DNA from: an uncultured Ruminococcus sp. | GTDB lineage: Bacteria > Bacillota > Clostridia > Oscillospirales > Ruminococcaceae | Direction of reading: 5' to 3' | Assembly: GCA_902787365.1 (NCBI GenBank) | Contig: CADAGC010000020.1 | Span: 1 to 36,106, forward strand | Length of the DNA stretch: 36,106 bases | Part shown: piece after piece, positions 4,937 through 29,334 of the stretch | How positions within the stretch are numbered: the first letter of the stretch is position 1 | How the letters are laid out: every line of letters begins with the position of its first letter | The notes under the pieces: model-generated | What the model was told of the DNA's origin: nothing | The model's database searches: none | Seen by the model: only the letters and a program-made list of their open reading frames with translations | Made by a program: the position numbers and the translations under genes

Positions 4937-4965
4937 TTGCAAAAGCTTATAAATTGTGCTATAAT
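4937..4965 (+). promoter_or_regulatory. promoter of surface-locus unit 1
   Basis: TTGCAA (4937-4942), 17-bp spacer, TATAAT (4960-4965). The ~75-nt leader to the start at 5040 contains a small CCGC/GCGG hairpin (about 4983-4996), but I recognise no riboswitch. Confidence 0.75.
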
Positions 4966-5039
4966 AAAATAGAGTAACTGTATCCGCAAGGGGCGGAGTA
5001 TGCCCTAACGGTGAAATCAACGAAAGCGAGGTGAACACG

Positions 5040-6128
5040 GTGGGCGGTAAAGCTTTAAAAAATGCTGAAAATGCCGATATAACTAATGTAGAGTCTGTTT
5101 CAAAAAAGGCTGATGAGCAGACTGTCAGCAGGAAAAAAGCTCTTATAAAATTCGGCGCCCTGACCGTGTTTACAGGGGTCATAGTTATAATTGCGACGGT
5201 GGCGTGGTTTACGATGAATAAGGATGTCGAAACAGGTGGTATGTCTGTCACGGCAGTAAAGGATAATTATACCATTAGATCTGTTGAAGGTTCTGTGGCG
5301 GGTATCTATGACGATTCTGATAATGAATCGGATTATGTACGTGATGTACTTCTTGAAAAGGCGAGCAAGAGTGCCGATACAATAACATGGCAGATAACCG
5401 AAGATACTCTGTCAGGTGATACACTTACAAAGGGTAAGAATATAGGGAACGGTCCCGCTGAGGGACGCACGGGCGGTATAGTCCCGGGTTCATCAGGCGA
5501 GCTGCAGTTTGTGGTTGACCCCGAAGAAGATGTTGATATAAAGTTTACATTCTATATGTACGGCTATACGGGCGGAATAAATGAGCAGGGTGTTGAAGAT
5601 AAGTCTACACTCAGTCTCATAGGCACAGGCACCTCTACCGGTTCAAGAAAGGCCAGGGAACTGCTAAACGGTCATATTTTGCTGTTTGAAAGCTGTGATG
5701 ATGGTAAATTCAGCGGCCTCATAGCGTCAAATGATGATTTTGAGCGTGTACTTGAAAAAAGCTTTACGGCACAGGAAACTGTGAGCATATACTGGGTATG
5801 GCCGGAGACCCTTGCCGAGCTTATACTTGATGACGCCGATCCCGATCATACCGATAATCTCAGGGGCAGGAGCAGTCTGTGCAGCAGTGATGGCAGGATA
5901 GAGGTCATAAAGCTTTTTAACAGCCATACCGATTGGTTTCTGTATGATCCGAACAGTTCCGACCCGAACTGGCAGGCGACCTTCAGCGGAACTACGCAGC
6001 AGGATATTGCTGCAACGGCTGACACTGTAAATTCAAACTATGCGCTATACAGCTCGTTTTATAATGAGGCCGATCAGTGCATAGGAACCAATGTGACATA
6101 TATAATGCTTGATATGACGGCTGACTGA
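5040..6128 (+). CDS. TasA/camelysin-style exported precursor (AWF-type), surface-locus protein 1
   Basis: A 362-residue protein with an unusually long, charged N-terminal extension (about residues 1-33), a hydrophobic segment (34-54) ending in Ala-Trp-Phe-Thr-Met (55-59), then a beta-rich domain. The hydrophobic segment followed by Ala-Trp-Phe and a Gly-Met-Ser-Val-Thr-Ala strand is shared with the proteins at 6168 and 19242 and resembles substrates of SipW-type signal peptidases (TasA, camelysin, spore-coat-associated proteins). The GTG at 5040 is preferred because AGCGAGG lies 8 nt upstream; a GTG at 5031 would overlap that site. It is the first gene of the unit running to 18969. The exact family is not recognised; a minor fibre subunit or anchor is likely. 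Confidence 0.75.
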   Translation: MGGKALKNAENADITNVESVSKKADEQTVSRKKALIKFGALTVFTGVIVIIATVAWFTMNKDVETGGMSVTAVKDNYTIRSVEGSVAGIYDDSDNESDYVRDVLLEKASKSADTITWQITEDTLSGDTLTKGKNIGNGPAEGRTGGIVPGSSGELQFVVDPEEDVDIKFTFYMYGYTGGINEQGVEDKSTLSLIGTGTSTGSRKARELLNGHILLFESCDDGKFSGLIASNDDFERVLEKSFTAQETVSIYWVWPETLAELILDDADPDHTDNLRGRSSLCSSDGRIEVIKLFNSHTDWFLYDPNSSDPNWQATFSGTTQQDIAATADTVNSNYALYSSFYNEADQCIGTNVTYIMLDMTAD

Positions 6129-6167
6129 GCGCGGTAAAGATTATCATGAAAGGTGGTGGAGCTTGCT

Positions 6168-7112
6168 GTGAATAATACTGAAAAAATAAAAGCGTGTGCA
6201 GATAATGCTGAAAACAGCGCAGAGGCTCCGCGAGGCTTTTTTGTGAGATTAAAAAAGAGATTTTGCAGTCTCAGCACATCAAGCAGAATACAGCTTGTGG
6301 CTGCGGTGATAATAACCGTAGCGGCTATAATCAGCGCACCTACGCTTGCGTGGTTCGCAAAGCAGAAGGAGATGTCTGTATCTGCAAAGATAAACTCACC
6401 TGCTACACTTGAAATAAAGTCCGGCGGACCTAAGGATAACGAGCAGGATATTATAAATTTTGAGCTTTCAAATATCGACACTGAGGATAAGAGCTATAAA
6501 TCATATATCGACAGCTCAACGGGTGATAAGTATTATTATAAGGACTACGTATTCTGTATAAAAGGGCAGGCAATAAGCAGTTATGATCTTCAGTTTGCTC
6601 ATACTACGAATATTCCCTTCAAGTATGAGATATACCGTGCCGTGCAGGACGATACCCTGCTTGACAATGACCCGAGAATGATACTCTATGAATCAAAGGA
6701 CAAGTCAGTTACTCAGAAGTATAAGCTTGCAAGGGTGAAGGTAGTGGACGGCACCGTTCAGACAAATAATGAGGGCGGCGTGATCTATGAGGATTATTCT
6801 ACTCCCATAGACGGTGCGTATGTCAATAAGGATACGGGTGAAAGGATACTTGCGAACAATTCGCTGCAAAGCAGGAGTTACAGCGGCGGTGACAGTATAC
6901 AGTCTTATGCGCAGCCGCTTTACTGGCTTAAAAGAAACATAACCGTTTATCCTCAGGAGAGCTCGCAGGCAGGCTTTACTCATTCATATGTTCTGCGTGT
7001 GAGCTGGCAGATGCCCGATTCTGAGGGGGAGGGTTATGACCGAGAGAATATCAACGCCGTACAGAACAATAAAGAGACAGATATGATCTATATAACAGCT
7101 GCAGTAAGCTGA
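6168..7112 (+). CDS. TasA/camelysin-style exported precursor (AWF-type), surface-locus protein 2
   Basis: A 314-residue protein with a ~40-residue cytoplasmic basic extension, a hydrophobic segment (about 41-60) ending in Ala-Trp-Phe-Ala (61-64), and a strand with Met-Ser-Val-Ser-Ala-Lys-Ile and Ala-Thr-Leu-Glu-Ile. The last pair aligns with the Ala-Thr-Leu-Gln-Ile of the subunit at 19242, which supports common ancestry. The C-terminal part contains a Trp-Leu-Lys segment and ends in a beta strand, with no LPXTG motif. The GTG at 6168 is chosen because the AAAGGTGGTGG ribosome site ends 8 nt upstream; starts at 6153 or 6156 would lie inside that site. A structural subunit processed by one of the locus signal peptidases is likely. 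Confidence 0.72.
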   Translation: MNNTEKIKACADNAENSAEAPRGFFVRLKKRFCSLSTSSRIQLVAAVIITVAAIISAPTLAWFAKQKEMSVSAKINSPATLEIKSGGPKDNEQDIINFELSNIDTEDKSYKSYIDSSTGDKYYYKDYVFCIKGQAISSYDLQFAHTTNIPFKYEIYRAVQDDTLLDNDPRMILYESKDKSVTQKYKLARVKVVDGTVQTNNEGGVIYEDYSTPIDGAYVNKDTGERILANNSLQSRSYSGGDSIQSYAQPLYWLKRNITVYPQESSQAGFTHSYVLRVSWQMPDSEGEGYDRENINAVQNNKETDMIYITAAVS

Positions 7113-7149: not shown

Positions 7150-8271
7150 ATGAAAAAAAGCATAAGGCATTTATTAAAAAAGCTTAGACACTCGTGGATA
7201 ACCGTCTGGCTCGTTATGGCAGTTCTTGCTCTTTCCTGTGTGTTTATATTTGCGGTGTATACGGGTGTTTCCTCTGTAAAGAGGGTAGTATCGACAGGCG
7301 CCGGTGCCGGTCTTCTTTTCTCGTCAGATTATATGTCGACAGGTACACAGTATACTACCGAGCACGGAGATTACTCGGCCTATGACGCAGATGAGAACCC
7401 CACATATCAGTTCATTGTGAGCAACCATCCGCAGGGTGACAGGCACATTTGGTATACAGCTAACAATATCGAATACAATGTCTCGGCTGAGCTTGTCAAG
7501 AATCAGAAATATACTGCTGAAGACCCCCAGGTGCAGTCAAACCCTTCGCTTGTAGGACAGTATAAGCCCGTGACAGCCGATGACCTTTTGGGCAAGACCT
7601 TTCAGATAGGCATAAAAGGTCAGGCTAAGCAGAACTTCAGTGCCGGTTCGGCAGTGACTTTTACCTTTACCGGCAGTAATGCGCTGAAAAAGACCGAACC
7701 TGATGATGATACTTTTGAGCTTGTGATAGATAAGAGCGAGCTGCTCGGTGAAGAACCTTCGGTACTTGTAAAGCTTACCGCCATACCCACAAATGTTTCT
7801 GGCGGCGAGGTCGACAGACTGTATGGCTATATGGGCATTTGTAAAAGAGCCACAGGCGATGCCAAGTGGTCAGGAAAGATAAATGACGAAAATTATACCA
7901 CTACCGATTATGATGCATATAATTATGTTATATCGGGTATAGGCAAGGGTACCTTCTACTTTGCTTATGACAGCTCAAAGCTCAGCCCAAATATGTTCTT
8001 TACACAAAATAATTCGGGAATTCAGCAAAACGATACACTTACCAATGAAGACTGGGGCAGGCTGACACAGTATAAGTCATCACAGCCATCGAATAAAAGC
8101 GATTGGAAACTTATGGTGCTTACAGTTGATTCCTCCGATAAGTCAAGATATGAGATACAGCTTTATAAAACGAGCGGTGATGATTACAGACAGGTCATTG
8201 ACGGATATGTTGATTTCGGATTTGTGGTGTCCGAGCAGGAGGATAATAACGAACCGGCCGGCGACGGCTGA
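7150..8271 (+). CDS. membrane-anchored or secreted surface-locus protein 3, unknown family
   Basis: A 373-residue protein with a strongly basic N-terminus, one hydrophobic segment (about residues 16-40) and a beta-rich extracellular region. Unlike its two upstream neighbours it has no Ala-Trp-Phe after the hydrophobic segment; instead a Ser/Thr/Gly-rich stretch follows, so it may stay anchored or be cut by another peptidase. The tail is acidic (Glu-Gln-Glu-Asp-Asn-Asn-Glu) with no sorting signal. AAGGAG stands about 11 nt before the ATG. The gene lies between the AWF precursors and the giant protein in one unit, so a linker or anchor role is possible, but this is inference. Confidence 0.7.
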   Translation: MKKSIRHLLKKLRHSWITVWLVMAVLALSCVFIFAVYTGVSSVKRVVSTGAGAGLLFSSDYMSTGTQYTTEHGDYSAYDADENPTYQFIVSNHPQGDRHIWYTANNIEYNVSAELVKNQKYTAEDPQVQSNPSLVGQYKPVTADDLLGKTFQIGIKGQAKQNFSAGSAVTFTFTGSNALKKTEPDDDTFELVIDKSELLGEEPSVLVKLTAIPTNVSGGEVDRLYGYMGICKRATGDAKWSGKINDENYTTTDYDAYNYVISGIGKGTFYFAYDSSKLSPNMFFTQNNSGIQQNDTLTNEDWGRLTQYKSSQPSNKSDWKLMVLTVDSSDKSRYEIQLYKTSGDDYRQVIDGYVDFGFVVSEQEDNNEPAGDG

Positions 8272-8310: not shown

Positions 8311-11300
8311 ATGAAAACGGCAATAGGCAAACTTAAAACTAAAATGGTATTTAAAAGAGCATTCAGCATTATAACCGCGTTTGCTATGCTTTTTGCTGCT
8401 CTTCCGATCGAGCATCTGGCACAGCAAGTAATGCTCTATGCCAGTGCAGAGATGACTGTTGAACCACGTGCGCATTCAATTGCTTTTGCGTCGCTTGAAG
8501 ATTTTGTTGCATATTCAAGTGATTATGCTAAAGGTACTTCCGAAGTTGATGGTGATACTGTCAAGAATTATGAATACTATTCTAAAGATATCATCACGCT
8601 TTCACTCAATACCGGTTCGACCAATGAAATGCCTAACGGCTATATTGGCCTTGGTACGATAGATGTACCATTCGATGGTAAGATAATCATAAATGCGGCG
8701 TCCGATTCCTACCAGTTGGCTGTAGATACTCCGCTGTTCACAAATGTAAGTGATAGCGTATTGATCACAAAGAATAACGGAACTGATGTGATCGAGCTTG
8801 ATCTTAAGAGAAAAAAGGCAGATGTCCTTGATCAGAAGGTTGAACTCAGCCCGTTGTTTGCAAGGCTTGTTACCCATTCCGGAGACGGCGGCACTACATG
8901 GAAGATAAGATCATCGACTTATAATGAATCGGGAAATGTGATAGCCTATAATTTCTCAGGCTTGATAGGTACATTGAATGAGCAGGCAAATGTAAATATT
9001 GAGTTTAAAAATGACTCATTTGTTGATGCAAACAATACAGCCCATGTCAAGGTTGAGAATGAGTCGGAAGATGATGGGATAGATGCAGGCCTAATTGCAG
9101 GCAGAATGAAAAATCTTGCGAAGATAGCTCTTAAGCTTTCGGGCACTAATACATCATGCAATATCTCGTCCTCTTACGGCAGTGCAGGCGGTCTTGTGGG
9201 CAAAATGGATCCCGGCGCAGAGATTGTCATCAATGAGATGAGCTATACCCCCACAGATAGCAGAACGATAAGTGCATATTCTTATGCCGGTGGTATTGTG
9301 GGCTATTGCGACGGGGGCAAGATAACTATCGCCGATAATGTTACTGTGCCTGTTAAAGGTGTTGTCATAAGTCAGGACGAAGAATCTGCTGCCGGCGGTC
9401 TTTGCGGTTATTATTCAAGCCCCGCAGTTTATGATGATACTACGTCTGATGAGATCGATTATGATGATTATAGCTATGACGATGTAAGCTTTGATATTTC
9501 AAAATTTGATATTGATGTAAAACTTAAGTCGCAGGTAATGACCGGTGGCTTGTTTGGTATGCTTTATTCTTCTGCTGATGTTTCTGTTACCGGTTCGTCC
9601 ATAAAAGCGGCAAATGAGATTGATACATCGGCATTTGGCGGTATCTGCGGTAAGTATCAGACGAATAGCCTTGAGAATATGCTTGAGGTGTCTAGTATTA
9701 CGTTGAATACATCTTCATCGGCCTACACAGATTATTACGGTGGTGTGGCGGCAGTTATCATTGATAATGATCCTGCGTATATCAAGGTTGATGACCTTAT
9801 ACATAACACTAAGCTCGGCTGCGGCAATGGCAGTACCGGAACAGGCTGTTTTGGCGGCGTTGTAGCAGATGCCGGCAGCAGTCAAGGCAGTATGCTTGAC
9901 ATAGCCAGTGTAACTGTATCCACAATGCCTGAGACAGGCTCGTCTGCAACGAAATTCCACGGCGGCGGCCTTGTGGGTAATATTCAAAAGGGCGTAGTGC
10001 GCCTTAGTGGCGTTACAACAATGACCAATGCTCCTTGTGAGGAGAATAATTCCGATTGCGGCCAGCTGGTAGGCATAAGAGGCGAAGCACTTGTATATGC
10101 TGTCGGCTCGGGTAATTCGGGCGATACGGGCTGGGAGTTCAACAGATCTTCTGTCGATGTTCGGGCAGATGATATAGGCACTTGGGGCGAAGTAGTAAGA
10201 GTAGAATGCATTGAAACTAATATTCTTAGCTTTGACGGTAGTGAGCATACTGTTACGATAAAAAAGCCTGTGAATAATACTAATATAACCAGTAGTACTA
10301 CAGCTATTACTATTCCGAACAAAGATGCATTTATAAGGCTTGCCCTTTATATGCAGCTCAATTCTTCAGGTGATTCCAGTTCGGCATTAGAATTTCAAGG
10401 AGCAACTCAATATTACAGAAAGAACAATCTGTTTAAAAGTGCGATCACATATACCATTGGTCAGGATATCGACCTTACCGATACAGGTATCACAGGCCTT
10501 ATGCGTGATGACGCAACGAACGGAAATGATAAATTCTGCGCAAAGATCACTGCGTCTGCTGCAAAGACCATAACTCTCAAAACGGGTCAGCAGTATGGTG
10601 TGATCAGCGGCACCTCCAATTACAGAGGAGCTATCTGCGGGCATAAGTATAACGGCCTTCTTGCACGTACAGGTGCCGGAGCCGAGGTCTCAAATATTAA
10701 CATAGCAGGAAATATATGCGTAAAGGGATTTGATGTAACATATATCGGCGGCGTTGCAGCCGAGGTCACAGACGGTATTAAGCTGACTGATGTAAACGTT
10801 TCTGAGACTATAGATACAGCTACACCGAAAGTAAGGCTCGGCGGATATATTGGTGTGGTATCATCAGCAAATAGCAAGGAAATTGCCATAAGCGGTACAA
10901 AGCCGGAGATAAAGCCCACTATCAACAATGGCGCACAGCTTAATAACGAAAGCAGCGGTGATAATCACTCGATAGGCGGCGCTATAGGCTATATTGCGTC
11001 AGTTAATAGCTTTGATGTCAAAATAACAAACGCTGAAGTGGGTACAACCATAACCAATAGCGGAAATGCCTCTTCGAGAATGCGTATGGCAGGCCTTATT
11101 GCCGATATAGCTGCAAATACTTCCGACACAAGAACGATATATCTTACCAATGTTACCGTTAAGGGTACTACCATATCCAATAATGCCACCGGTTCCACAG
11201 GCGGTATGCTGGGCTATAACTGGCATAATACCAATGTCAGCTTTTCGGGTCTTACTTTAGAGAAAAACGGCAGCACCAATAATGCCATATCAACATCAGC

Positions 11301-14300
11301 ACCTAATCTGGGCGGCCTTGTGTTTACTGCGACAGGTCATTGGACTGTGCCCGAAAAAGGAATAACAATTCGCTCTCTGAAAGATAACAGAACATCGGGC
11401 GATTCCTTTGGTATGCTCGTAAATAGAGGCTATGCCACTATCAGTAATAAAAAGTACGGTTTATATCTCGACCTTACCCACGTAAACAGCTATGTGCTGC
11501 CCAATATGGTAGGTGAAGGGGGACTGGCGGCATCGGGTGATATAACTGTTATAGCCAGCACAGTATATGATGAATTGGTAGCTTACAGCGGTGCCGACGG
11601 AAAAGTGCTTTCAAACAAGGGCGGCGTTGTTTCGATAACTACTTCGGGAGATTCACCTACAGTACTTATGAGCGGCAGCACTTGCAGCACTTATCAGAAT
11701 AAGTATAATAAATCAAAAACCAACGGTAATACAAGATATTACTATAATCTTGACTATATAAAGGATCACCTCACAGACGATAACGGCGGCGAGTCCGATG
11801 CAAAGAAACTGCTTTTCTGGAGCCTGAGTGAGTATGCTGCGGGCAATATAAGCGGCAATTTTGCGGGCGGTGCTGTTTGCGGCAACTGTGATATGGAAGG
11901 TATATCATACTATCCTATTGATGTATCAAGTATAACTATAGCCGATGATCTTAAACTTAAGTTCTATAATTCTCAGATAGAGGACATGGAGAATGCTGAA
12001 AGCGGCAATACCGACAGCAATGTCAGGTCAACAAGGAGTTCATCGTCACAGCACTATCTGATGCACAGTGGCTTGTTCCTTAATGCTACAGGTACTGTCA
12101 AGACTCAGGGCAATCTTCATTTTATAGGAAATATCGTTTCTGACAGCACATATTCCGGCGTTTTTATAAAGGGCACCCTAAGCGGCAGCCTTTTAACGGC
12201 AGATAATAAGGATATAGTTTTTGAAGGCCTTACTATGAGCAGCAATGGCGGTGCGCTGTTTATCAATAAAATAACCGGTTCGGATCAGTCGGTGCAGATA
12301 AATGGCGTGCGTACAGGCGGTCTGGGCTTTGATGTTGTTTCAAAGATTGACGAGACGGGATATGCAGCGAATGCTGCCGTGGCGGGAAGCCTTATAGGTG
12401 ATGTAACTGTAACTAACCTCTCGATGAAGTTCAACAGGATAAAGATCGATGCGAGAGATTCGGTAGGTGCTGCCAATAATGGATATAATACCACAAGATC
12501 TATATTTACAAATGCAACTCTGCTAAACAAGCTTGATGCCGATCTTAAGACCAATGCTGAATACAATTTTAATGAGACGGAAGACTGGAGCGGCTCTACA
12601 CACGTTGCTGATGTGACCTACGGCAAAGAGCTTACAGATAGCATTGAATACAGTACAAATGGTGTGAGCAATGAAAAGTATTATTATGATACAAGAGCGC
12701 TTATATACATCACGGATGCTGATAAGGAAAGCGGAACTAATTTCAGCAGCGGCTATCTGCCTTATGTGAGGTTTTATCATTCAAGTGTTACAAATGCGCC
12801 TGCACCCATAAATCAGCTCCGTGAGATCAAGGTCAATGTTAAGTCCACAGACCTTACAACGGGCTGCGGCACATATGATCACCCTTATGAGATCAACGAT
12901 GCCGTTCAGCTTGTAAGTATTGCGGGCATGATCGCGGGCGGCGACAGTATTCCTACCATTCGTCTGCCCAAGACAGTTGCAAAGTATTCGACTAATTACA
13001 ACTCTCACTGGTGTCATAACAATAATGCTGAGACCTGTGCCGAGTATACTACCACTGACGGAACAACCTATACCAGCACTGAAACAGGTGCTGCTGAATG
13101 GACAAAGGCCGAGGTGCGTGAGTATCTTGCATCTGCATATTATCAGGTCATCAGTAATATCACTATCTCCGATAGCAAGTTCCAGGGTCTCGGCTCATAT
13201 GAAACATCGGGCAAAGGGCAGTATGCTTTCAGGGGGGTTATAGCCGGAAGAAAGGGTAATGAAAATGTCAAGATAAAGAATAAGACCAAGTCGCCTCTCA
13301 TCAACTTCTGCACAGGTGCAGTTATAAAGGATATAGATGTTGAGGTAGAGTGGCCGAGCAATGACACCTTCGTTTCCTGCAATATCAATGCGGATAATAC
13401 AAGTGAGTATTCTCTGAGCAACGATGACTGCAAGGCCTACGGCGCAGTTATTGGTAAGATATTTGCGGGCGATAACATCATCGACAATGTTAATGTTACA
13501 TTTACTGAAGGTCATCATATTGAGATAACCTCGGGTGCTCTTATAACAGACAACAACAGAAAAAAGAGAAACGTTGCTAATACACCACTTGGCGGTTATA
13601 TTGGCACGGTCATTGACGGCTGTGTGATATTCAGAAATATGGCAGAAACCACTGCCGAATCAATGGGTATGCATGTTGATTCTGTCGTTTCAGTGTATAA
13701 ATACAGTGACGTTCAGGTGGATTCGCCCCTTAAAAATGTTGCAAATGATTCTTCCGACAGCAACTACGATAATGGCAACGGAAAGAGATTTCTCTACGTT
13801 AACCCGATTATAGGCAGAGTAATAAACGGCTTTGTGATAAACGAAACCGATACTTACAGATATAGTGAGGACGGTAAGTACGGTGACGGTGAAACTCGTG
13901 TGACAGGCGGCTCGACGGTTACTCTCAAGAATGGCAGAAAGAACTACTCTATTGCCGATATTGACAGCACTTCCGAGACCAAGCTACAATTCAGAAGCAG
14001 CAATTTTTCAACAACGATTAGTAATAATGCTTCGTCAATGAGCGTTTTCGCCCCTGATGCACAGTCACTTTATATTATGTCCGGCATATTGATTATAGGT
14101 GCAGGTACGGCAGATACAATGACGGGTAATTATAACTACAGTACGGCATACAGTAATGGTTCATCTGTCGGGAACTATAACGCAACTCACCATGCAGCGT
14201 ACTCTGCAATAGGTGAGACAGACGCTGTTGAAAAGGCAAGTGTTGCGACAGATACTGTTAACTCAACATCGGCTATACCTTATATAATAGAGCATTACAC

Positions 14301-19153: not shown

Positions 19154-19241
19154 AATAGTGTGGATAACTATGACATTATAGCCGCGGCGTGTGCCGTATC
19201 GACCCTATAGAAACGATTTTATGAGGAAAGGAAATGATAAT

Positions 19242-20356: not shown

Positions 20357-20387
20357 ACCCCCTCCTCGTGAGGGGGTTGTTTTTTTG
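20357..20387 (+). terminator. strong intrinsic terminator after the subunit gene
   Basis: ACCCCCT (20357-20363) pairs with AGGGGGT (20371-20377) around a 7-nt loop, followed by TGTTTTTTT. Confidence 0.9.
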
Positions 20388-20428: not shown

Positions 20429-20457
20429 TTGACATTTTCGTGAATTTGTAGTATAAT
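20429..20457 (+). promoter_or_regulatory. perfect consensus promoter of surface-locus unit 3
   Basis: TTGACA (20429-20434), 17-bp spacer, TATAAT (20452-20457), 52 bp upstream of the GTG at 20510. No terminator hairpin is visible between here and 29334. Confidence 0.9.
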
Positions 20458-21298: not shown

Positions 21299-22012
21299 AT
21301 GGACGAAAAGTTGAGAGATGTTCTGGAACTTCGCAGAACAGCCAAGGAGGTCAAGCGGCACGTTATTGTTATGCGTGTTATGGGGCTTTTGGTGATAATA
21401 CTGATAGCGCTTGTTTCCATAGCCTATGCGATATCCTATTTCTATGATAAGTACGGAAGCTTTACCGTAAGGATAGATAAGTATGATATGGTCAAGCAGG
21501 GGCTTACTCTATCCGAGAATCCCGACTGGGAGAGGACGCAGTCGGTGCTCAATGCCGATATCGTCTATGATATGACCAATATCAGCGGCGAAGACCTACC
21601 TGAAAATATAGATATGGTAAACGGCTCGCATAACGGTGAAAACTATATCGCCTATACTTTCTACCTTATCAATTCGGGTGATGATACCCTTAGCTATGAG
21701 GGCGAGATGACCCTTGAAAATGTCACCAATAAGCTTGATGAAGCTATCCGTATAGCCGTGTATAAAAACGGCGAAAAGACCGTCTACGGCAAGACCAAGT
21801 CGAGCGGCGAGGGCATCGAGGGTGACTGTGATAAGGAGTTTGAGACATCAAGCATAGTTATGACAACGGCTTCTGAGGGCTTTAAGCCTAACAGTAAGGA
21901 TAAATATACCGTTGTGGTATGGCTCGAGGGCAACGACCCCGACTGCACAGATGAGCTTATCGGCGGAACGCTCAAGCTCGGTATGGACTTCAAGATAGTA
22001 GAATCGACCTAA
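21299..22012 (+). CDS. membrane-anchored TasA-like accessory subunit
   Basis: A 237-residue protein with a basic 20-residue N-terminus, one hydrophobic segment (about 22-46) and a beta-rich ectodomain of about 190 residues. The pattern Tyr-Thr-Phe-Tyr-Leu-Ile-Asn-Ser-Gly-Asp-Asp followed by a C-terminal Val-Val-Trp-Leu-Glu-Gly-Asn-Asp and a closing Leu-Gly-Met-Asp-Phe-Lys strand is like the C-terminal half of the candidate major subunit at 19242 and typical of camelysin/TasA-fold proteins. The Ala-Trp-Phe motif is replaced by Tyr-Ala-Ile-Ser-Tyr-Phe. It lies 12 bp after the EAL gene and 32 bp before a signal peptidase, a layout reminiscent of tapA-sipW-tasA. An initiator or anchor subunit is a reasonable guess. 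The ATG follows AAAGGAGTAG. Confidence 0.72.
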   Translation: MDEKLRDVLELRRTAKEVKRHVIVMRVMGLLVIILIALVSIAYAISYFYDKYGSFTVRIDKYDMVKQGLTLSENPDWERTQSVLNADIVYDMTNISGEDLPENIDMVNGSHNGENYIAYTFYLINSGDDTLSYEGEMTLENVTNKLDEAIRIAVYKNGEKTVYGKTKSSGEGIEGDCDKEFETSSIVMTTASEGFKPNSKDKYTVVVWLEGNDPDCTDELIGGTLKLGMDFKIVEST

Positions 22013-22044: not shown

Positions 22045-22725
22045 ATGAAAAAGGCGCTTTCGATAATAGTAAACATAATAGCGTGGATAATACTGCTTTT
22101 TGCGCTGCTGGTGACGATAATCGTCTTCTCGTCATCAAGAAACGGCGATACGGCTGAGGTCTTCGGGTATATACCACTTTCGGTAGAATCCGACTCGATG
22201 AAGCCCACCTTCAAGCAGGGCGACCTCATCATCATAAAGGAGGTAGACGACCTCTACGACCTGAAAGAGGGCGACGTCATTACCTACTGGACGATAATCG
22301 ACGGCAAGCGTGTCAAGAACACACACCGAATCGTGAGCATAAACGAGTTTGAAAACACCCGAAGCTTCGTTATGAAGGGTGATAATAACGAACTCAATGA
22401 CGAAGAGCCCGCACTCCCTTCCGATATAATCGGTAAGTGGAACGAAACGAAGATAGGCGGCGGGGGCAAGGTAATGGATTTCCTGCGCACTAAAAAGGGC
22501 TTCTTCATCTGTATCGTGATACCGATGATACTCTTCTTCCTCTTTGAACTTTATAAGTTCATAGTCACCCTCGTTGAGGTCAGAAAGCCTGCACTTACCG
22601 AGGCTGATGAAGAGGAGATAAAGAAGCGTGCAATAGAAGAATACCTCGCCGAGCAGAAAAAGAATGATAGCGGGGAAACGGACAATACCGAGGCAGAGCA
22701 GAGCGATGCCCCGAACGATAAGTAA
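22045..22725 (+). CDS. signal peptidase I, SipW-like (Ser-His type), copy 1
   Basis: A 226-residue membrane protease with an N-terminal helix (about 5-28), an extracellular catalytic domain and a second helix near residues 150-175, followed by a charged cytoplasmic tail. The catalytic Ser is in Ser-Asp-Ser-Met-Lys-Pro (Ser51). The general base is His (His94 in Asn-Thr-His-Arg-Ile), not Lys, as in SipW and the archaeal/ER signal peptidases. The Lys-Gly-Asp-Asn-Asn box (Asp113) completes the family pattern. SipW enzymes process TasA-type precursors, and four such precursors are encoded here. ATG at 22045 with GGGGAG upstream; 17 bp precede the next gene. Confidence 0.92.
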   Translation: MKKALSIIVNIIAWIILLFALLVTIIVFSSSRNGDTAEVFGYIPLSVESDSMKPTFKQGDLIIIKEVDDLYDLKEGDVITYWTIIDGKRVKNTHRIVSINEFENTRSFVMKGDNNELNDEEPALPSDIIGKWNETKIGGGGKVMDFLRTKKGFFICIVIPMILFFLFELYKFIVTLVEVRKPALTEADEEEIKKRAIEEYLAEQKKNDSGETDNTEAEQSDAPNDK

Positions 22726-22742: not shown

Positions 22743-24329
22743 ATGAATGCGTTTTTAAAATGGTTTTTTGTCTTTATATCCGAGATGCTAAAGGGTTTTG
22801 CCGATATCTTCGGTGGCCTGTGGAGCGGGTTAAAGCAGATATTCAACATCAAAAATTACATAGATATTTTCAAGAGCTACTCTACCGAGTTCGGCGCTCT
22901 GGCGTGGATACTGGCGATACTTTCTATCATAATCGTTGTGGCTATCTTTGTGTTGATAGCACTTATGATAATCTTTGCTCTGCGTAAATACGTGCGCTTC
23001 AGGCATTCTATCGTCTCGAATGAAGACCTCCTCGAGGAGATAGCACTCTTACAGCGCCGTGTGCTTAAGATGACTAAGGAAAAGGACGAGATAATGGCTA
23101 TGAAGATAGCCCAGATGGGCGTGCCTATGTCGGGCAATTTTGCACTTGGCGACGGCCAGATGATGCTCGAGGGCGAGGCTGCGGGTGCTGAGGGCATGGC
23201 AGGCCAGGGCGAGGCAGCAGTTGCTGATGACGGCGTTATCCAGACCACCGACAGGCGTTTCTCAAAGCTTATGGAGGTCGATGCTTTCTATAAGACCTAC
23301 ACTCCGCCCGAGTATGATAACGATATAACCCTGGAGCAGTTTTGCGAAAGGTACCGCAACTTCGCCTGCTCGAGAATGCACTTGTACTATGAGCCCAAGA
23401 CAATACGCCTCTTTATTGCAGGTATGGCTTCTACAAAGCTCATTATCCTACAGGGTATATCGGGTACAGGTAAAACTTCGCTTCCTTACTCATTCGGTAA
23501 GTTCTTGCAGAATGACACCACCATAGCTTCCGTTCAGCCCTCGTGGCGTGACCGAACAGAGCTTTTCGGCTACTTCAACGAATTCACCAAGAACTTCAAC
23601 GAGACCGAGACTCTTAAGAGAATATATTCATCAAGCTTCAATAACGATATCAACCTCATTCTTCTTGATGAGATGAACATAGCACGTATCGAGTATTACT
23701 TCGCAGAGATGCTGTCTATCCTCGAAATGCCCAACGCCGACGAGTGGGAACTTGACATAGTGCCCAACGCATGGAGCACCGACCCTGTCAACCTCAATCA
23801 CGGCAAGATAAAGATACCCCAGAACATCTGGTATATCGGTACGGCTAACAACGATGACTCGACATACGCTATCTCAGATAAGGTTTATGACCGTGCTCAG
23901 CCGATAAACCTTGACGCCAAGGGTATTCCTTTCGAGGCGCCCGACACGCCGCCTATCAATATGGGCTTTGACCACCTCGATGCGCTGTTCAACGAGGCGT
24001 TCGAGAAATATCCTATCTCGCAGGAGAATTTAAAGAAGATACAGCAGCTTGACCTGTGGGAAATCGAAAAGCTCAGAGTTGCGTTCGGTAACCGTATCTT
24101 AAAGCAGATGAACCTCTTCGTGCCCGTTTATGTTGCCTGCGGCGGCGAGGAGCTTGACGGCATAGACTACGTTCTTGCCACCAAGATATTCAGAAAATTC
24201 GAGAGCTTAAACCTTGCTATGCTTCGTGAGGAGCTAAGAGAGCTTTGCGTATACATCACCAAGTCATTCGGCAAGGGCAAGATGAGCGAGTCGATAGCTT
24301 ATCTTGAAAGACTGCAAAAGCTGTTCTAA
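22743..24329 (+). CDS. membrane-anchored McrB-like AAA+ NTPase
   Basis: A 528-residue protein with an amphipathic start, a strong transmembrane helix (about 50-80), a coiled segment (about 93-120), a Gly/Ala/Glu-rich linker (about 128-165) and a C-terminal AAA+ domain. The Walker A is Gly-Ile-Ser-Gly-Thr-Gly-Lys-Thr-Ser (238-246). The Walker B is Leu-Ile-Leu-Leu-Asp-Glu-Met-Asn (305-312), followed by a helix corresponding to the McrB DEINRGN-FGEL region. Sensor 1 is Ile-Gly-Thr-Ala-Asn-Asn-Asp-Asp (365-372), corresponding to McrB's MNTAD, and an Arg at 384 may be a finger residue. McrB proper is a cytoplasmic restriction GTPase; the membrane anchor and absence of a DNA-binding domain are unusual. 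It is probably the energy source of the locus, paired with the DUF2357-like protein at 25005. NTP preference cannot be read from sequence. Confidence 0.85.
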   Translation: MNAFLKWFFVFISEMLKGFADIFGGLWSGLKQIFNIKNYIDIFKSYSTEFGALAWILAILSIIIVVAIFVLIALMIIFALRKYVRFRHSIVSNEDLLEEIALLQRRVLKMTKEKDEIMAMKIAQMGVPMSGNFALGDGQMMLEGEAAGAEGMAGQGEAAVADDGVIQTTDRRFSKLMEVDAFYKTYTPPEYDNDITLEQFCERYRNFACSRMHLYYEPKTIRLFIAGMASTKLIILQGISGTGKTSLPYSFGKFLQNDTTIASVQPSWRDRTELFGYFNEFTKNFNETETLKRIYSSSFNNDINLILLDEMNIARIEYYFAEMLSILEMPNADEWELDIVPNAWSTDPVNLNHGKIKIPQNIWYIGTANNDDSTYAISDKVYDRAQPINLDAKGIPFEAPDTPPINMGFDHLDALFNEAFEKYPISQENLKKIQQLDLWEIEKLRVAFGNRILKQMNLFVPVYVACGGEELDGIDYVLATKIFRKFESLNLAMLREELRELCVYITKSFGKGKMSESIAYLERLQKLF

Positions 24330-24352: not shown

Positions 24353-24964
24353 ATGAACACCCTTTTATCAAAAGCAGGCGCACTTATCACCACCGTAACG
24401 GTTGCGCTCTTTGCGCTGTTTATCATAATAAACTTCCCGTTCGGGTATTACGTTGTGTGTATGCTGCTGCCTGTGGGGTATGTTATGATGTCGGCGGGGC
24501 TTGCTTATGAGTGCGATGATGACAGGCGTGTGGCCGCAATAATAGGCATGGCGCTTGCGGCGGTGTATATGCTGCTTGTGCTGCTTGTCTATTTCTCGCA
24601 GACCACCACAGTCGCCAACGAGCAGCTTGATGAGCAGGCAGACAAGCTGATAAACTTCCGCCGTGGCGGGCTTATCTTTAATTACGATCTGCTGGGCTAC
24701 GGAATGATGGCGCTTTCAACATTCTTTATGGGGCTCACCGTCAAGCCTAAAAATAAGTGCGATAAGTGGCTCAAATGGCTGCTGATAATACACGGGGCGT
24801 TCTTCCCGGGGTGTTTTATAATGCCTATGACGGGCGTTTTCCTCTCTATGCAGGGCGGCGAACATGGGCGTGGCGGCGATATGGCGCTGCTTTTCTGGTG
24901 CGCCTATTTTATCCCCGTAGGAGTACTGGCGTTTAAGCATTTTAATCAAAAAAACGATAACTAA
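24353..24964 (+). CDS. polytopic membrane protein of unknown function in the NTPase operon
   Basis: A 203-residue hydrophobic protein with about six predicted transmembrane helices and no recognised family. Landmarks are two early helices, a short acidic cytoplasmic or outer loop (Glu-Cys-Asp-Asp-Asp-Arg-Arg), a loop rich in Glu/Gln/Asp between about 86 and 102, and a Phe-Asn-Tyr-Asp-Leu-Leu-Gly-Tyr-Gly segment entering the fourth helix. It sits between the McrB-like NTPase (23-bp gap) and the DUF2357-like protein (40-bp gap), so it may be the membrane channel or platform of the same complex. That role is inference from position. Confidence 0.75.
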   Translation: MNTLLSKAGALITTVTVALFALFIIINFPFGYYVVCMLLPVGYVMMSAGLAYECDDDRRVAAIIGMALAAVYMLLVLLVYFSQTTTVANEQLDEQADKLINFRRGGLIFNYDLLGYGMMALSTFFMGLTVKPKNKCDKWLKWLLIIHGAFFPGCFIMPMTGVFLSMQGGEHGRGGDMALLFWCAYFIPVGVLAFKHFNQKNDN

Positions 24965-25004: not shown

Positions 25005-27260
25005 GTGGCAGCCACAAAGCAGGACTGGTATAAAGACTTTAAAGGCTTTGTAAAGGATACGGGCGATGATGAGCTTTTTTCGCAGCTTGATTCTCTCCTT
25101 CACGCAAGCCGGAATAACTTCGCATTTAACCGAAAGATAATGGAAAAGGCCATAGATGTTTCCTGGGTTGAAACTATCGAAAACGGCCTGTTCCACGTTG
25201 ATAATGTAATAAGAAACCCAAGGCGTACAATAGAAGACGTCGAGGAGGTTGTGCCTATAGCCCTCTCACGTAAGATAACTGTTGAGAGCGTCAAGCACTT
25301 GGCCCAGCATACCGACCTTATACAGAGTATCGACAAGAAAACGGGCAGGATAACCCCCTCAAAAATACTCAACGTCTATAAGGAAGAATCCCTTATGACG
25401 TATGAGAATAAGTTCGTCAACACCCTTGTTGACAGACTGTATATTTTCATAAACAGAAGATACGAAAAGCTCGCTCAGGTGGCTAAGGACGAGGAAGTGC
25501 TCTCCTTGGGCTACGACACCGACATTGACGACGGTGCGGGCGGCAGAATGAAGATAAATATAAACATCGAAACGGTAGACAGCCTTGATAAGGTCAACGA
25601 GAGCGGCCTTACCGTTTGGCAGAGGGTTGAAAAGCTCAAAAAGATAATCGAGGAGTATAAAGGCTCAGAGCTTTGCCTTACCCTCGGCAATACCTACATA
25701 AGACCCCCCGTAATGCGCACCAACGCCATTATGAAAAACGTAGACCTCAAAGCTTGCCTGACGCTCTGGCAGTATATTGAGAGCTACGATAAGGTGGGCT
25801 ATGAGATAAATGTCCAGAACACCGCAGTAAAGCCCGATATCAAGTATGTTGAGGACTTCTATAAGCTGGTAGTCACGAGCCTGCTGCTTTTCAGAAACTA
25901 TAACGCAGAGGGCGGCAACAAAAAGCTCGAAGAAATGAAGACCGTCAAGCAAAGGGCACTACAGCCGAGATTCTTGAAGCACTTTGATAAAGAGCTTGCA
26001 AGCACCTATGATATTCAGACAGATGCGGCGGCGGGCTACCTTGCGGCTGACAGCGACCAGAAGCTTATCAAGAAAATGCCCGCAGATGTCAGCGGCGTTA
26101 TAGACCAGGTATCAAAGGTCATAGAGATAGAGCGAAACTATATGCGTGAGCAGGAGCGTATCCGTCAGGAGCGCATAAAGGCCGAAGAAGAGGCCGAGCG
26201 CCTGCGGCAGGAGGAGATCGCCCGCCAGGAGGAGCTTCGCCGTATCGAAGAGGCCAGAGAGGCCGAGCGAGAGCGCATAAGGCTTCAGCAGCAGGAGGAA
26301 GAGCGCCAGCTGCGTGAAATGCTCGAACAGAAGAGAAGAGAGCAGGAGGAAGCCGAAAAGGAGCGTGCAAGACAGGAAGAGATCCGCCTTGCAAGACTTG
26401 AAGAGGAAAGAAAGCGGGAGGAAGAAGCCCGCATCAAGCGAGAAAAGGAAGAGGCCGAAGCTGCCGAGCGAGAGCGCATAAAGCAGGAGAAGCTTCAGGT
26501 AATGACCGAGCTTGGCGGCGCCGAGGGCTTGGATGCCGAGCAGATAGAGGAAGAAGTTCAGGCGGCAGAGGAGACCGAGGAGCAGAAGGCATACGAGCAG
26601 GTCACCGAGGCAGAGATAGAAGAGGTAGTAAACGACCTCGAGGAAGAATCATCCGAGAACGAGGTCGAGCAGCCTGAGGAACAAGAAGACCCGAGAGCGA
26701 TTGCCGCACGAATGAAGCTCGAGCAGCAAAAGCGTGAGAAAGAGCGTGCCGAGCGTGAGCGTGCAGAGCGTCTCAAGGCCGAAAGGCAGAAGTTCGAGAG
26801 CAAGCCGTTTAAGGAGATATACAAGGAATACTCCAAAAACCCGATATATGCTATACCGAGGTTTATCAGATATATCCTTGCATTCGTATTCGGCATAATA
26901 CCCGAGGATACCGATAACCCCGACCTCAGAGAGAGACTTGCTAAGCGCAAGGCCGAGGCTGAGGCAAGAGAGATCGAGCAGGCAAAGCATATCGAGATGG
27001 AGGGCTACTACAAAAAGTATGCCCAGACCTTCAAATACCGATTTATGCGTAAGATCGGCGATATCAAGTTCAAGCGCAAAAAGAAGAAAGAGCGCAAGAA
27101 CAGCCCGAGGCCTGTTTACAAGCCGCCTGTTCGCACCGCAGAGGAGCAGCGTGCTATTGATACAGAGATGAAGCGCCTGTATAAGGAGTATCACGTATCT
27201 CTTGCAGAGAGATTCAGAAGGTGGCTCGAGGAATTTAAGTTCAAGCATCGAAGGAGATGA
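25005..27260 (+). CDS. DUF2357-like protein with long charged coiled coil, probable partner of the McrB-like NTPase
   Basis: A 751-residue protein without signal peptide. Residues 1-350 resemble the DUF2357 region that accompanies McrB-type NTPases: Ile-x-x-Asn-Pro-(Arg)2 (about 70-74), the Thr-Tyr-Glu-Asn-Lys-Phe-Val-Asn stretch (132-139) leading into a long helix, and an Ile-Arg-Pro-Pro segment (232-235). Residues 370-535 are a highly charged Glu/Arg/Gln coiled coil, followed by an acidic stretch (about 540-600), more coiled coil, an isolated hydrophobic segment (about 625-640) and a basic C-terminus. Standalone DUF2357 proteins usually carry a PD-(D/E)xK nuclease region; I see none. The start is GTG with AAGGAGGG 9 nt upstream. 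The stop overlaps the ATG of the second signal peptidase. The family call is moderate; the coiled coil is certain. Confidence 0.72.
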   Translation: MAATKQDWYKDFKGFVKDTGDDELFSQLDSLLHASRNNFAFNRKIMEKAIDVSWVETIENGLFHVDNVIRNPRRTIEDVEEVVPIALSRKITVESVKHLAQHTDLIQSIDKKTGRITPSKILNVYKEESLMTYENKFVNTLVDRLYIFINRRYEKLAQVAKDEEVLSLGYDTDIDDGAGGRMKININIETVDSLDKVNESGLTVWQRVEKLKKIIEEYKGSELCLTLGNTYIRPPVMRTNAIMKNVDLKACLTLWQYIESYDKVGYEINVQNTAVKPDIKYVEDFYKLVVTSLLLFRNYNAEGGNKKLEEMKTVKQRALQPRFLKHFDKELASTYDIQTDAAAGYLAADSDQKLIKKMPADVSGVIDQVSKVIEIERNYMREQERIRQERIKAEEEAERLRQEEIARQEELRRIEEAREAERERIRLQQQEEERQLREMLEQKRREQEEAEKERARQEEIRLARLEEERKREEEARIKREKEEAEAAERERIKQEKLQVMTELGGAEGLDAEQIEEEVQAAEETEEQKAYEQVTEAEIEEVVNDLEEESSENEVEQPEEQEDPRAIAARMKLEQQKREKERAERERAERLKAERQKFESKPFKEIYKEYSKNPIYAIPRFIRYILAFVFGIIPEDTDNPDLRERLAKRKAEAEAREIEQAKHIEMEGYYKKYAQTFKYRFMRKIGDIKFKRKKKKERKNSPRPVYKPPVRTAEEQRAIDTEMKRLYKEYHVSLAERFRRWLEEFKFKHRRR

Positions 27261-27973
27261 GCGAAGGCTTGAAAAGCGCCGAAAATACAGCAAATACAAA
27301 AGGCAGACTGACTAAAGCCTTCGATATAGCGCTAACAGCTGTTATCGCCGTGCTTGTTATCGTGATAGGCTATACTATGTATCAGAGCCACCACGGCAAG
27401 TCGGCAAGCTTCTTCGGCAAGAGCGTGCTTGTGGTAGTCACAGGCAGTATGGAGCCGTCTATCAGCGAGGGAGACCACATTTTCATTGAGAAATGCGACC
27501 CCGATACGCTCAAAGAGGGCGATATAATAACATTCACCTCCCACGAGGAGGATATAAATGGCAAGCTGGTGACTCACCGCATAATAGCCAAAAACGCCGA
27601 CGGCAGCTTTGAAACAAAGGGCGATGCTAACCCCACAGCCGATAAAGAGCCCGTTAAGCCCTCTGATATCGAGGGCAGATATGCGGGCAGGGCAAGGGTG
27701 TTTGACCTGATAGGGTCATTCGGCAGCCCCCAGAAGCTGATAATGGTGTTTGTGATGATACCGCTTGCACTTGTATCGCTCTATGAGGTCAAGACGCTGA
27801 TGAAGCTGTTCATTCAAAGCAGGGCAGAGCTGCGGCTGACTGATGAAGAGCTCAAACAAAAGCTTATAAGAGAAGAGATAGAAAAGGAAAAAGAACGCCT
27901 GCGTCAGCAGGCCGAGAATGATAAAGCAGGGGAGGTGGAGCCTGATGGGACAGGAAGCGATAATGAAGCGTAA
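27257..27973 (+). CDS. signal peptidase I, SipW-like (Ser-His type), copy 2
   Basis: A 238-residue membrane protease with an N-terminal helix (about 22-42), catalytic Ser64 in Thr-Gly-Ser-Met-Glu-Pro, His107 in Val-Thr-His-Arg-Ile as general base, and the Lys-Gly-Asp-Ala-Asn box with Asp123. A second helix lies near residues 160-180, followed by a long charged tail. It is clearly divergent from the copy at 22045, so the two probably differ in substrate. Its ATG overlaps the stop of the DUF2357-like gene (ATGA) and its 3' end overlaps the next gene, which implies translational coupling with the NTPase machinery rather than with the subunits. Confidence 0.92.
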   Translation: MSEGLKSAENTANTKGRLTKAFDIALTAVIAVLVIVIGYTMYQSHHGKSASFFGKSVLVVVTGSMEPSISEGDHIFIEKCDPDTLKEGDIITFTSHEEDINGKLVTHRIIAKNADGSFETKGDANPTADKEPVKPSDIEGRYAGRARVFDLIGSFGSPQKLIMVFVMIPLALVSLYEVKTLMKLFIQSRAELRLTDEELKQKLIREEIEKEKERLRQQAENDKAGEVEPDGTGSDNEA

Positions 27974-28397
27974 GATGATAAGCGCTATCATATTTGCCGT
28001 GGTAATGGCCATAGGTATGCTTGTGTTTATCGGGCTTTACATGGACGAGCGCAAGGTCTCGCAGCAAAAATACCGTGAGCAGTATAACGAGAGCCTTTCC
28101 CACGTTGCCGAGGATATAGACTCATACCTTAAGGCCGAGGGCGATAAGGATATGCGCTATACACGAATAGTGTGCGATATGTCAAATGCCGACTCCTTTG
28201 CGTTTTTGCTTGATGATTTTACCGACAAGCAAAAGACCGTCAACGAGCTTTATACCTGCCTGCTCAAATACCCCGAGCAGATGAGCGGTAAGCTTGAAGA
28301 TGTCAAGGCGGCTGTTGAGGATATGAAGCAGGAGCTTGACAAGGGGTATGAAAAGGCCGACGAGATAGTCGATTCGGTCAATAAAAAGGGTAATTAA
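27945..28397 (+). CDS. small single-pass membrane protein, unknown function
   Basis: A 150-residue protein with one N-terminal transmembrane helix (about residues 10-33) and a helical, charged outer or cytoplasmic domain of about 115 residues with heptad-like spacing toward the C-terminus. No family recognised. The ATG at 27945 is chosen because GGGGAGGTGG lies 7 nt upstream; a longer frame from 27918 would start before that site. It overlaps the 3' end of the second signal peptidase gene by 29 bp. Confidence 0.75.
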   Translation: MGQEAIMKRKMISAIIFAVVMAIGMLVFIGLYMDERKVSQQKYREQYNESLSHVAEDIDSYLKAEGDKDMRYTRIVCDMSNADSFAFLLDDFTDKQKTVNELYTCLLKYPEQMSGKLEDVKAAVEDMKQELDKGYEKADEIVDSVNKKGN

Positions 28398-28415
28398 TTT
28401 AAAAGGGTGATATAC

Positions 28416-28643
28416 ATGAGCGAAAAAAGCAAACTCAAAAAGGAAATCAAGATATGCCAGCAGACGATAGAGGAGATAGAGCGTAAGCGTTCACGTTCCC
28501 AGTCGGCGCTGGTGCAGGCGGTGCTTTTGCAGGAAACGCCTAATGAGAACGACGTTGAGTGGTTCAATAAGTACACAGGCGAGATAACCGCCTGCCGTAA
28601 CCATATGATAGAGCTGCAAAAGAAGCTCGATTCGATAAAGTAG
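28416..28643 (+). CDS. small coiled-coil protein, 75 residues
   Basis: A short soluble helical protein, rich in Lys/Glu/Gln with leucine spacing typical of a coiled-coil hairpin: one helix about residues 3-40, a break around Thr-Pro-Asn-Glu-Asn, and a second helix to the end. No family recognised. The ATG at 28416 follows AAAAGGGTGA. It is 18 bp after the previous gene and 10 bp before the DUF4253 gene, in the same presumed operon. Confidence 0.7.
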   Translation: MSEKSKLKKEIKICQQTIEEIERKRSRSQSALVQAVLLQETPNENDVEWFNKYTGEITACRNHMIELQKKLDSIK

Positions 28644-28653
28644 AGGTGAGCTT

Positions 28654-29334
28654 ATGGCTGAGAGAAACATAACCGACTACTTAGGCTTTGAGTATGAAAA
28701 GGTGCCGCTGTGGACTACCCCCAAGGAGCTTATGGAGCTTTGGAAAAAGGAGTATGAGCAGGGTAAGCAGGATGGCTTTATCCCCGTTATCATACCGTTA
28801 GAGGACAGGCTTGAAGACTACCTTGAGGATATGGAGGGGCAGGATTATTCTGCCGACTCGCTGCCCGAGGTGAAGGACTTTTTTGCTGCCATGAAGCAGG
28901 AAATAGACGATATTGACAGCTACAAGGGCACTATGACCGCAGGCGACGCTAACGACATTATGGTGTCGATGACCGATTATGAGTCGGGCGAGCTTGCAGA
29001 GTGTGTTATTATCCACCTGCCGACGGACAAGCCCTGGGAGGCGGCGCTGTTAGTGCCTTTCGGCGGCTGGAACGACTGCCCGACCCCCGACGATATGGCG
29101 GCGGTGCTCAAATACTGGTATGAGCAGTACGGCGCAGTTCCCGCAGCGATAACGCACGACACCTTAGAACTGGTGCTGCCAAAACCCGTTTCGAGAGAGG
29201 ACGCACCTCAGGTGGCTATGGAGCAGTTTCTGTTCTGCTCAGACAGGGTGACACAATGCACCAAATCGGGCACGATAGGCGAGCTTGCAGGAGACTTAAG
29301 CGTTTCTACCGTGTGGTATTTCTGGTGGGATTAG
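28654..29334 (+). CDS. DUF4253-family protein
   Basis: A 226-residue soluble protein. The C-terminal ~110 residues carry the DUF4253 pattern: Val-Pro-Phe-Gly-Gly-Trp-Asn-Asp-Cys-Pro, then Leu-Lys-Tyr-Trp-Tyr-Glu-Gln-Tyr-Gly-Ala, His-Asp-Thr-Leu-Glu-Leu, Ala-Met-Glu-Gln-Phe-Leu-Phe-Cys-Ser-Asp, and the terminal Trp-Tyr-Phe-Trp-Trp-Asp. The family has no firmly established function; members often occur in polymorphic-toxin or immunity-type neighbourhoods. It is 10 bp downstream of the small coiled-coil gene and is the last gene of the long unit. AGAGGTGAG precedes the ATG. Confidence 0.85.
   Translation: MAERNITDYLGFEYEKVPLWTTPKELMELWKKEYEQGKQDGFIPVIIPLEDRLEDYLEDMEGQDYSADSLPEVKDFFAAMKQEIDDIDSYKGTMTAGDANDIMVSMTDYESGELAECVIIHLPTDKPWEAALLVPFGGWNDCPTPDDMAAVLKYWYEQYGAVPAAITHDTLELVLPKPVSREDAPQVAMEQFLFCSDRVTQCTKSGTIGELAGDLSVSTVWYFWWD

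Follow-up and report, generated by a model that had tools for sequence, protein, structure and literature searches.

Among the NxD McrB GTPases, a clade with FtsB-like membrane and coiled-coil helices was named CoCoPALM by Bell et al. (2024, eLife; PMC11090510), who reported its association with signal peptidases presumed to act in pilus assembly. In the part of that article available to us, the system is given one short passage, with its treatment deferred to a later paper, and in the sources consulted in part the name is used in this sense only by the article and its preprint. Here we describe a conserved gene cassette from an uncultured Ruminococcus sp. (contig CADAGC010000020.1 of assembly GCA_902787365.1), in which a membrane-anchored McrB-like AAA+ protein and its DUF2357 partner are encoded between two SipW-type signal peptidases. 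The window, that is, the whole stretch of DNA analyzed, comprises 36,106 nt of one contig, and the host genome has 2.9 Mb in 137 contigs.

The E. coli McrBC type IV restriction system resembles the cassette in its AAA+ motifs and its adjacent DUF2357 partner. Unlike E. coli McrBC, the cassette has a membrane helix, and a nuclease was not found among the window proteins and partners scanned. The Bacillus tapA-sipW-tasA and Clostridium perfringens sipW-bsaABCRSD loci are similar in another respect, as both place a SipW-type peptidase beside secreted fibre precursors. We know of no AAA+ or DUF2357 gene in the Bacillus locus, and the C. perfringens operon, as far as its partly available description goes, differs from the cassette in the same way. 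No paper mentioning SipW together with DUF2357 was found in the literature collection searched.

Judged by its sequence, the cassette is of the named but uncharacterised CoCoPALM kind. The two are alike in an NxD-clade McrB-type domain and in signal peptidase neighbours. They may also be alike in membrane and coiled-coil helices joined to the AAA+ domain, where the helix was called by hydropathy and the coil was judged by eye, and in a putative coiled coil on the McrC-like partner. Neither substrates nor an EAL protein, an E protein, or a fusion of DUF2357 to a peptidase is mentioned in the accessible text on CoCoPALM (PMC11090510); here the AWF precursors are probable substrates, and the other three features were found. 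The first-pass annotation, made from the DNA letters alone, had proposed an NTPase-driven export, assembly, or anchoring apparatus that would be new; as a kind, it had been named in 2024 (PMC11090510).

All named genes are open frames, and their order at 5031-28397 is A, B, C, a 3552-residue protein, D, EAL, E, Sip1, AAA+, polytopic, DUF2357, Sip2, and F. The core cassette (EAL-E-Sip1-McrB-like AAA+-DUF2357-Sip2-F) occupies 20510-28397, where precursors with an Ala-Trp-Phe (AWF) junction adjoin it. Its genes are as follows:

20510..21286, forward (+) strand: degenerate EAL domain protein, predicted to be cytoplasmic
21299..22012, +: E, membrane-anchored core protein with an outer part related to D
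22045..22725, +: Sip1, signal peptidase of the SipW/archaeal type
22743..24329, +: membrane-anchored McrB-like AAA+ NTPase
25005..27260, +: coiled-coil protein with a DUF2357 (McrC N-terminal-like) domain, in which no nuclease was found
27257..27973, +: Sip2, second signal peptidase, fused to DUF2357 in relatives
27918..28397, +: F, small one-helix protein, with a possible start at 27963

Conservation and domain content of the cassette

Relatives were represented by the best 80 of 557 confirmed AAA+ loci in named genome contigs, obtained with a query alignment of eight AAA+ proteins. The best matches were rumen Ruminococcus genomes, and the 80 loci included Ruminococcus, R. albus, R. flavefaciens, Eubacterium ruminantium, E. 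uniforme, and E. xylanophilum, besides Oscillospiraceae, Lachnospiraceae, and Clostridia. Linkage was counted over the loci whose contig reaches far enough. A peptidase gene was found upstream of the AAA+ gene in 74/74 loci and a DUF2357 gene downstream in 66/66, while a downstream peptidase, either fused or separate, was found in 56/56. The E gene was upstream of the AAA+ gene in 61/67 loci, and F was present in 49/56.

As controls, 20 loci (5-15 kilobases) were taken from 20 of 54 further phylum-sample genomes with McrB-type matches of at most 118 bits, chiefly those ranked highest, and the DUF2357 partners of 10 loci were scanned. Profiles of the peptidase, E, D, A, B, EAL, F, and the giant 3552-residue protein had no match in any of the 20 loci, and AWF-junction frames were likewise found in 0/20. 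The signal peptidase neighbours reported for CoCoPALM were observed on both sides of the AAA+ gene in relatives and on neither side in controls. Chance clustering was ruled out by the complete linkage of the upstream peptidase and DUF2357 genes together with the 20 empty control loci.

The occurrence of the cassette was also followed in broader samples. Of 391 genomes sampled evenly from the class, 21 matched the AAA+ protein at E (expectation value) <=1e-40 in 30 places, and 20 regions were fetched. These comprised 14 loci of the full-length type (classed after viewing), five of an AAA-DUF2357-AAA form, and one of another arrangement. All 14 full-length loci had a peptidase, 13 had DUF2357, 12 had E, 12 had an AWF-junction frame, and three had F; the locus without DUF2357 (L181) is cut by the contig end. 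In the family sample (148 genomes of 123 genera, AAA+ threshold E 1e-10), nine genomes had AAA+ matches, but the match in G005, with 33% identity, is to a generic McrB. Cassette-type AAA+ proteins were confined to the other eight, from seven genera; DUF2357 occurred in exactly these eight genomes, and all eight carried a SipW-type peptidase on the contig of one or the other. Conserved co-occurrence in several genera, which the first-pass annotation had named as support for its proposal, was thus observed. The E protein was present in these eight genomes and in G005, which has E and a peptidase; no cassette-type AAA+ protein was found there, on a contig that ends 467 bases past the peptidase match. 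Within the genus, the AAA+ gene was found in 7/7 genomes searched.

No transfer RNA gene was found in the window, and among matching records 0/262 plasmids and 0/2 phages hold 80% of the AAA+ protein, and a mobile element was rejected on these grounds. Separately, AAA+ relatives with 37-39% identity over the matched part were seen on a Deinococcus plasmid (L210) and a Polaromonas plasmid (L211), where they adjoin a DUF2357 or hypothetical gene and no signal peptidase is annotated.

When the AAA+ profile was searched against the PDB, only E. coli McrB chains were matched up to E 0.01 (three sequences, best E 0.001). Membrane helices were called by hydropathy only, and the window protein contains one strong hydrophobic helix at residues 62-80, in keeping with the earlier description of a membrane-anchored McrB-like protein. 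On the same basis, an N-terminal helix was found in 78/78 AAA+ proteins from cassettes that have 480 residues or more, compared with 0/20 generic McrB controls. The string GTANNDDST (N-x-D-D, also readable as NxxD) was present in 80/80 AAA+ relatives; NxD was found in the 20 generic controls as well (GT.NxDE), and it therefore marks the clade rather than CoCoPALM alone.

The partner protein of the window matched PF09823 with 33.1 bits (cut-off 23.3), which bears out its DUF2357 assignment, and a long charged heptad-like stretch was judged by eye to run from residue 381 on. Among 54 cassette partners, of which the first 420 residues were scanned, DUF2357 was matched in 54 and a PDDEXK nuclease in none. 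A nuclease domain was also absent from three full-length DUF2357 partners scanned (the window protein and two relatives), and no nuclease family was matched in nine window proteins (D, and EAL to F) by Pfam scans. For the full-length partner of locus L046, the Pfam DUF2357 match itself was not listed. All 10 generic McrB partners scanned matched both DUF2357 and PDDEXK_7, nine of them above the nuclease cut-off, and a PDB search with the DUF2357 profile gave no match up to E 1. A restriction system was rejected as unlikely, because a nuclease was not found in the window proteins and scanned partners and because every genus genome searched has the AAA+ gene.

Both signal peptidases of the first-pass annotation were retained, as Sip1 (101.7 bits) and Sip2 (97.2 bits) exceed the TIGR02228 cut-off of 51.85 bits. 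While Sip2 overlaps the DUF2357 gene by 4 bases in the window, the two are joined in relatives: of the 68 DUF2357 genes complete at the 3' end, 24 were fused in frame to the second peptidase, and 43 of the 44 unfused genes were immediately followed by a separate peptidase gene. For example, the fused protein of L046 matched TIGR02228 at residues 763-922 with 97 bits. On the AAA+ tree, a quick tree with its long branches flagged, the fused state required four changes, at least three of which were forced by starred branches. The fusion is the strongest single sign in these genomes, and it suggests that the NTPase pair works on or with a signal peptidase.

The EAL protein matched PF00563 with 111 bits, with GGFG, LMS, and DGVV in place of the active-EAL motifs DDFG, KxD, and EGVE, so that the degenerate state noted earlier was upheld. 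Active EAL proteins carry the DDFG and KxD motifs, and these were also seen in accessory EAL proteins. An EAL gene was near the AAA+ gene in 63/64 loci, but only in 9/14 of the full-length class loci. A role as a receptor of cyclic di-GMP (c-di-GMP) is possible because the host genome has 35 GGDEF matches. No known RNA, including the c-di-GMP riboswitch, had an Rfam match in the window, and a riboswitch reading was rejected. Behind two distant cassettes (L168:10731-13022 and L177:13100-15367), a long GGDEF-EAL protein was seen that matches EAL strongly.

The AAA-DUF2357-AAA form was found in five of the 20 class regions (L162-L165 and L179), where two AAA+ proteins flank a gene matching the DUF2357 profile with 94-130 bits. 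The only one of these genes that was scanned, that of L163, had no Pfam DUF2357 match. GTANNDDST was present in 10/10 AAA+ proteins of this sister form, and in L162, L163, and L165 both AAA+ proteins appeared by eye to have an N-terminal hydrophobic stretch. No peptidase profile match was found near the sister-form regions. In L162:7749-15595 and L163:7241-16188, the triplet is followed by membrane-anchored proteins; three of these were scanned, and a transglutaminase-like domain was found in two. These arrangements suggest that the link to the cell surface may be wider than the peptidase cassette, and the sister form is not described in the accessible text of Bell et al. (2024). The remaining class region, L166 (genome G747), encodes a 605-residue AAA+ relative (348 bits) by an 834-residue gene without a peptidase, and belongs to neither the cassette nor the sister form.

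Surface proteins beside the cassette

Upstream of the core cassette, the window encodes the following secreted proteins, assigned from open frames and hydrophobic helices or, for the giant protein, from its motifs:

5031..6128, +: A, AWF-junction precursor
6153..7112, +: B, AWF-junction precursor
7150..8271, +: C, signal-anchored surface protein without AWF
8311..18969, +: giant secreted repeat protein of 3552 residues with GLUG-like motifs
19191..20342, +: D, probable main fibre subunit with an STYAWFT junction, its true start perhaps an internal ATG

Five signal-anchored proteins, three of them with an AWF junction, had been reported at first, and this was confirmed: the junction is present in A, B, and D and absent from C and E. 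The GLUG label given to the giant protein fared less well. While its 18 GG[LIVFAY][VIAFC]G motifs far exceed those of shuffled sequences (mean 0.22, maximum 3 in 1000 shuffles), no Pfam family was matched up to E 0.5, and the GLUG domain identity was rejected.

The D profile was the best one for 42 frames in 38 of the 80 loci, and AWF was present in 36 of the 39 D-profile frames of 180-500 residues. Profile comparisons between disjoint sequence sets showed that D shares 58 columns with A (E 3e-12) and 58 with B (E 2e-7), in both cases in the signal and junction region only, and a 127-column C-terminal region with E (E 5e-11), while no significant likeness was observed between A and E. Searched against the PDB, the E profile gave a single weak match to a spliceosomal helicase (E 0.011), which was taken for chance. 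In TasA/CalY (PF12389) family members gathered from the same class, an AWF junction was present in 7/8 rows. TasA, after cleavage behind alanine, has phenylalanine as its second residue in the part of the source available (PMC10269814), and cleavage after the alanine of AWF would leave the same residue in that position. The presence of SipW-type signals on the secreted proteins is supported by these sequence comparisons.

Conservation differed between the machine and its neighbours. In a comparison with G113, a genome with the same gene order, the core proteins of the window (EAL, E, Sip1, AAA+, DUF2357, Sip2, and F) showed 84-99% identity; for its surface proteins (A, B, C, D, and the giant protein), the range was 24-28%. 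In the 64 loci with an AAA+ identity of at least 75%, the median identities to the window were 80% for AAA+, 74% for E, 62% for DUF2357, 61% for Sip1, 54% for EAL, and 51% for F. Among the surface genes, D reached 34% (n=31), A 31.5% (n=15), B 37% (n=11), and C 31% (n=10). All medians use the best family member per locus, with orthology unproven. The machine genes are constant and the exposed products variable, as expected for surface structures.

Proposed function and alternative explanations

We slightly favour a reading in which the cassette encodes a machine dedicated to the biogenesis of SipW-type surface proteins, with a repurposed McrBC pair at its centre. Precursors A, B, and D, whose junction is observed, would be exported with a signal-anchor and cut after the alanine, before W-F. 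Sip1 and Sip2, which belong to the expected family, would act as the dedicated peptidases, a pairing suggested by their linkage. The AAA+ protein would form a McrB-like ring, which its N-terminal helix would anchor on the inner face of the membrane. In McrBC, to the extent the sources are available, a finger of McrC runs through the pore of the hexameric McrB, and a cycle of rotation has been put forward (PMC7680126), while the McrC stalk has been likened to the gamma subunit of F1 (PMC6624300). By the same arrangement, a stalk of the DUF2357 protein may sit in the pore of the ring, with the coiled coil and C-terminus of this protein coupling the ring to Sip2, a coupling seen as fusion in relatives. 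Turnover of nucleoside triphosphate (NTP) could then twist or pull this link and thereby order cleavage and the hand-over of subunits to a base of E, perhaps with F, and the dead EAL domain may serve as a cytoplasmic regulator or adaptor. That an NTP-driven stalk would do mechanical work is inferred by analogy, for example with NorQ/NorD, in which a MoxR AAA+ ring twists a partner inserted in its pore (PMC13036017, available in part); the families there are different and the task is metal insertion (PMC13036017), so the comparison serves as an analogy only. More tentatively, and with considerable doubt, the cassette may hold a McrBC-derived, membrane-anchored rotary or twisting motor, in which a DUF2357 shaft coupled to a SipW-type peptidase drives ordered fibre release and polymerisation, as part of a wider clade that serves the surface rather than DNA and includes the peptidase-free AAA-DUF2357-AAA form with its transglutaminase-like surface proteins.

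Several observations weigh against a dedicated fibre-building machine. SipW-type peptidases are common without the NTPase: 46 of the 148 family genomes pass TIGR02228, while eight have the AAA+ protein, and the operon behind the BsaA filaments of C. perfringens includes no AAA+ protein as far as its description is available. A TasA fold is not indicated either. Members of PF12389 had no match in the window genome, with a positive B. subtilis control, and D matched the TasA/CalY family (hhalign E 1.6e-6) over 34 columns of the signal and junction only, so that kinship to TasA is seen at the signal junction alone. In addition, the first-pass annotation had held that AAA+ and DUF2357 genes occurring mostly without fibre genes would speak against it; fibre genes or their kin were recognised in most loci, but less constantly than the peptidases. 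Among the 64 loci with at least 9 kilobases of flank, a member of the D, A, B, or giant-protein family was found by best profile in 46, and either such a member or an AWF-junction frame in 47, while the other 17 had neither. In view of these 17 loci, the peptidases and E are more constant neighbours of the machine than any fibre genes that can be recognised.

Three other explanations were weighed against the same evidence. A membrane-tethered AAA+ protein beside peptidases and signal-anchored proteins would fit equally well with membrane quality control, in which the ring extracts or clears uncleaved precursors and has no role in fibre building, and the many peptidase-bearing genomes without the AAA+ protein are also consistent with it. 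However, Pfam scans of the window cassette gave no degradative protease, and the DUF2357-peptidase fusion points to coupling with processing, which leaves quality control unlikely. It is rather improbable that the NTPase and DUF2357 merely switch both peptidases according to the EAL protein, without mechanical work: the EAL protein has lost its catalytic motifs and its profile is matched in barely two thirds of the full-length class loci, although its near-constant presence among close relatives, the number of GGDEF matches in the genome, and the GGDEF-EAL protein downstream in both distant loci scanned would agree with such a signalling gate.

The least probable of the alternatives is a defence system of the CoCoNuT kind, moved to the membrane to guard the cell surface, with the surface genes as neighbours or triggers. 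The nearest relatives are of the McrBC type, a PADLOC candidate model (PDC-M26A) was matched with 125.7 bits, and the loci without a recognisable fibre gene would also be explained. CoCoNuT systems have a nuclease, HEPN or another, within McrC or adjacent to it. Such a role is opposed by the lack of a nuclease domain in the window proteins and scanned partners, the presence of the AAA+ gene throughout the genus genomes searched, the plasmid and phage records, none of which holds 80% of the protein, and the 20 generic relatives, which are without this neighbourhood.

If the rotary or twisting motor is real and drives fibre release and polymerisation, it would be, to our knowledge, the first assembly machine of this fibre class to be powered by NTP. 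The cassette shows a motor family of DNA restriction put to another use, apparently in a stable manner, in rumen bacteria, among them known degraders of plant fibre, and this motor family is linked to signal peptidases by gene fusion. Should the motor act on surface proteins, it would represent a new principle for Gram-positive fibre building. An experimental test is feasible because the AAA+ gene is present in strains already in culture, which belong to Ruminococcus albus, R. flavefaciens, and Eubacterium ruminantium.

Transcription units and accessory features

The following additional features were identified in and around the cassette:

19125..19153, +: sigma-70 promoter before D, TTGACA-17-TATAAT, with 12/12 positions matching
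20357..20377, +: terminator-like hairpin with an 8-pair stem and a T run, between D and EAL
20429..20457, +: sigma-70 promoter of the EAL-to-F unit, with 12/12 positions matching
24353..24964, +: polytopic protein, accessory rather than core

The genes from EAL to F, with the polytopic gene included, are separated by 12, 32, 17, 23, 40, -4, and -56 bases, where the last value becomes -11 if F starts at 27963. D and the EAL-to-F genes are probably separate transcription units, because a perfect promoter precedes D and a terminator-like hairpin follows it. The nearly gapless, probably co-expressed unit of the first-pass annotation is kept for EAL to F, with its small gaps and two overlaps, and not for D. 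Upstream of EAL, promoters matching at 11 or 12 of the 12 positions were found in 45/59 relatives and in 0/59 shuffled sequences. Promoters of this quality were found before 21/107 D-profile matches, 8/74 Sip1 genes, and 3/66 E genes, and before none of the AAA+ (0/79), DUF2357 (0/74), and F (0/56) genes.

The polytopic protein had been counted among the machine components. Its frame is present, and the gene also occurs in G113, but its profile matched in only 1/80 relatives, and it was dropped as a machine part. Elsewhere in the window, 3517-4761 encodes a secreted protein without a Pfam match that appears glycoside-hydrolase-like by eye and is conserved in G113. Two adjacent small membrane-anchored proteins at 743-1282 and 1419-1868 appear to be duplicates, as their motifs are similar by eye.

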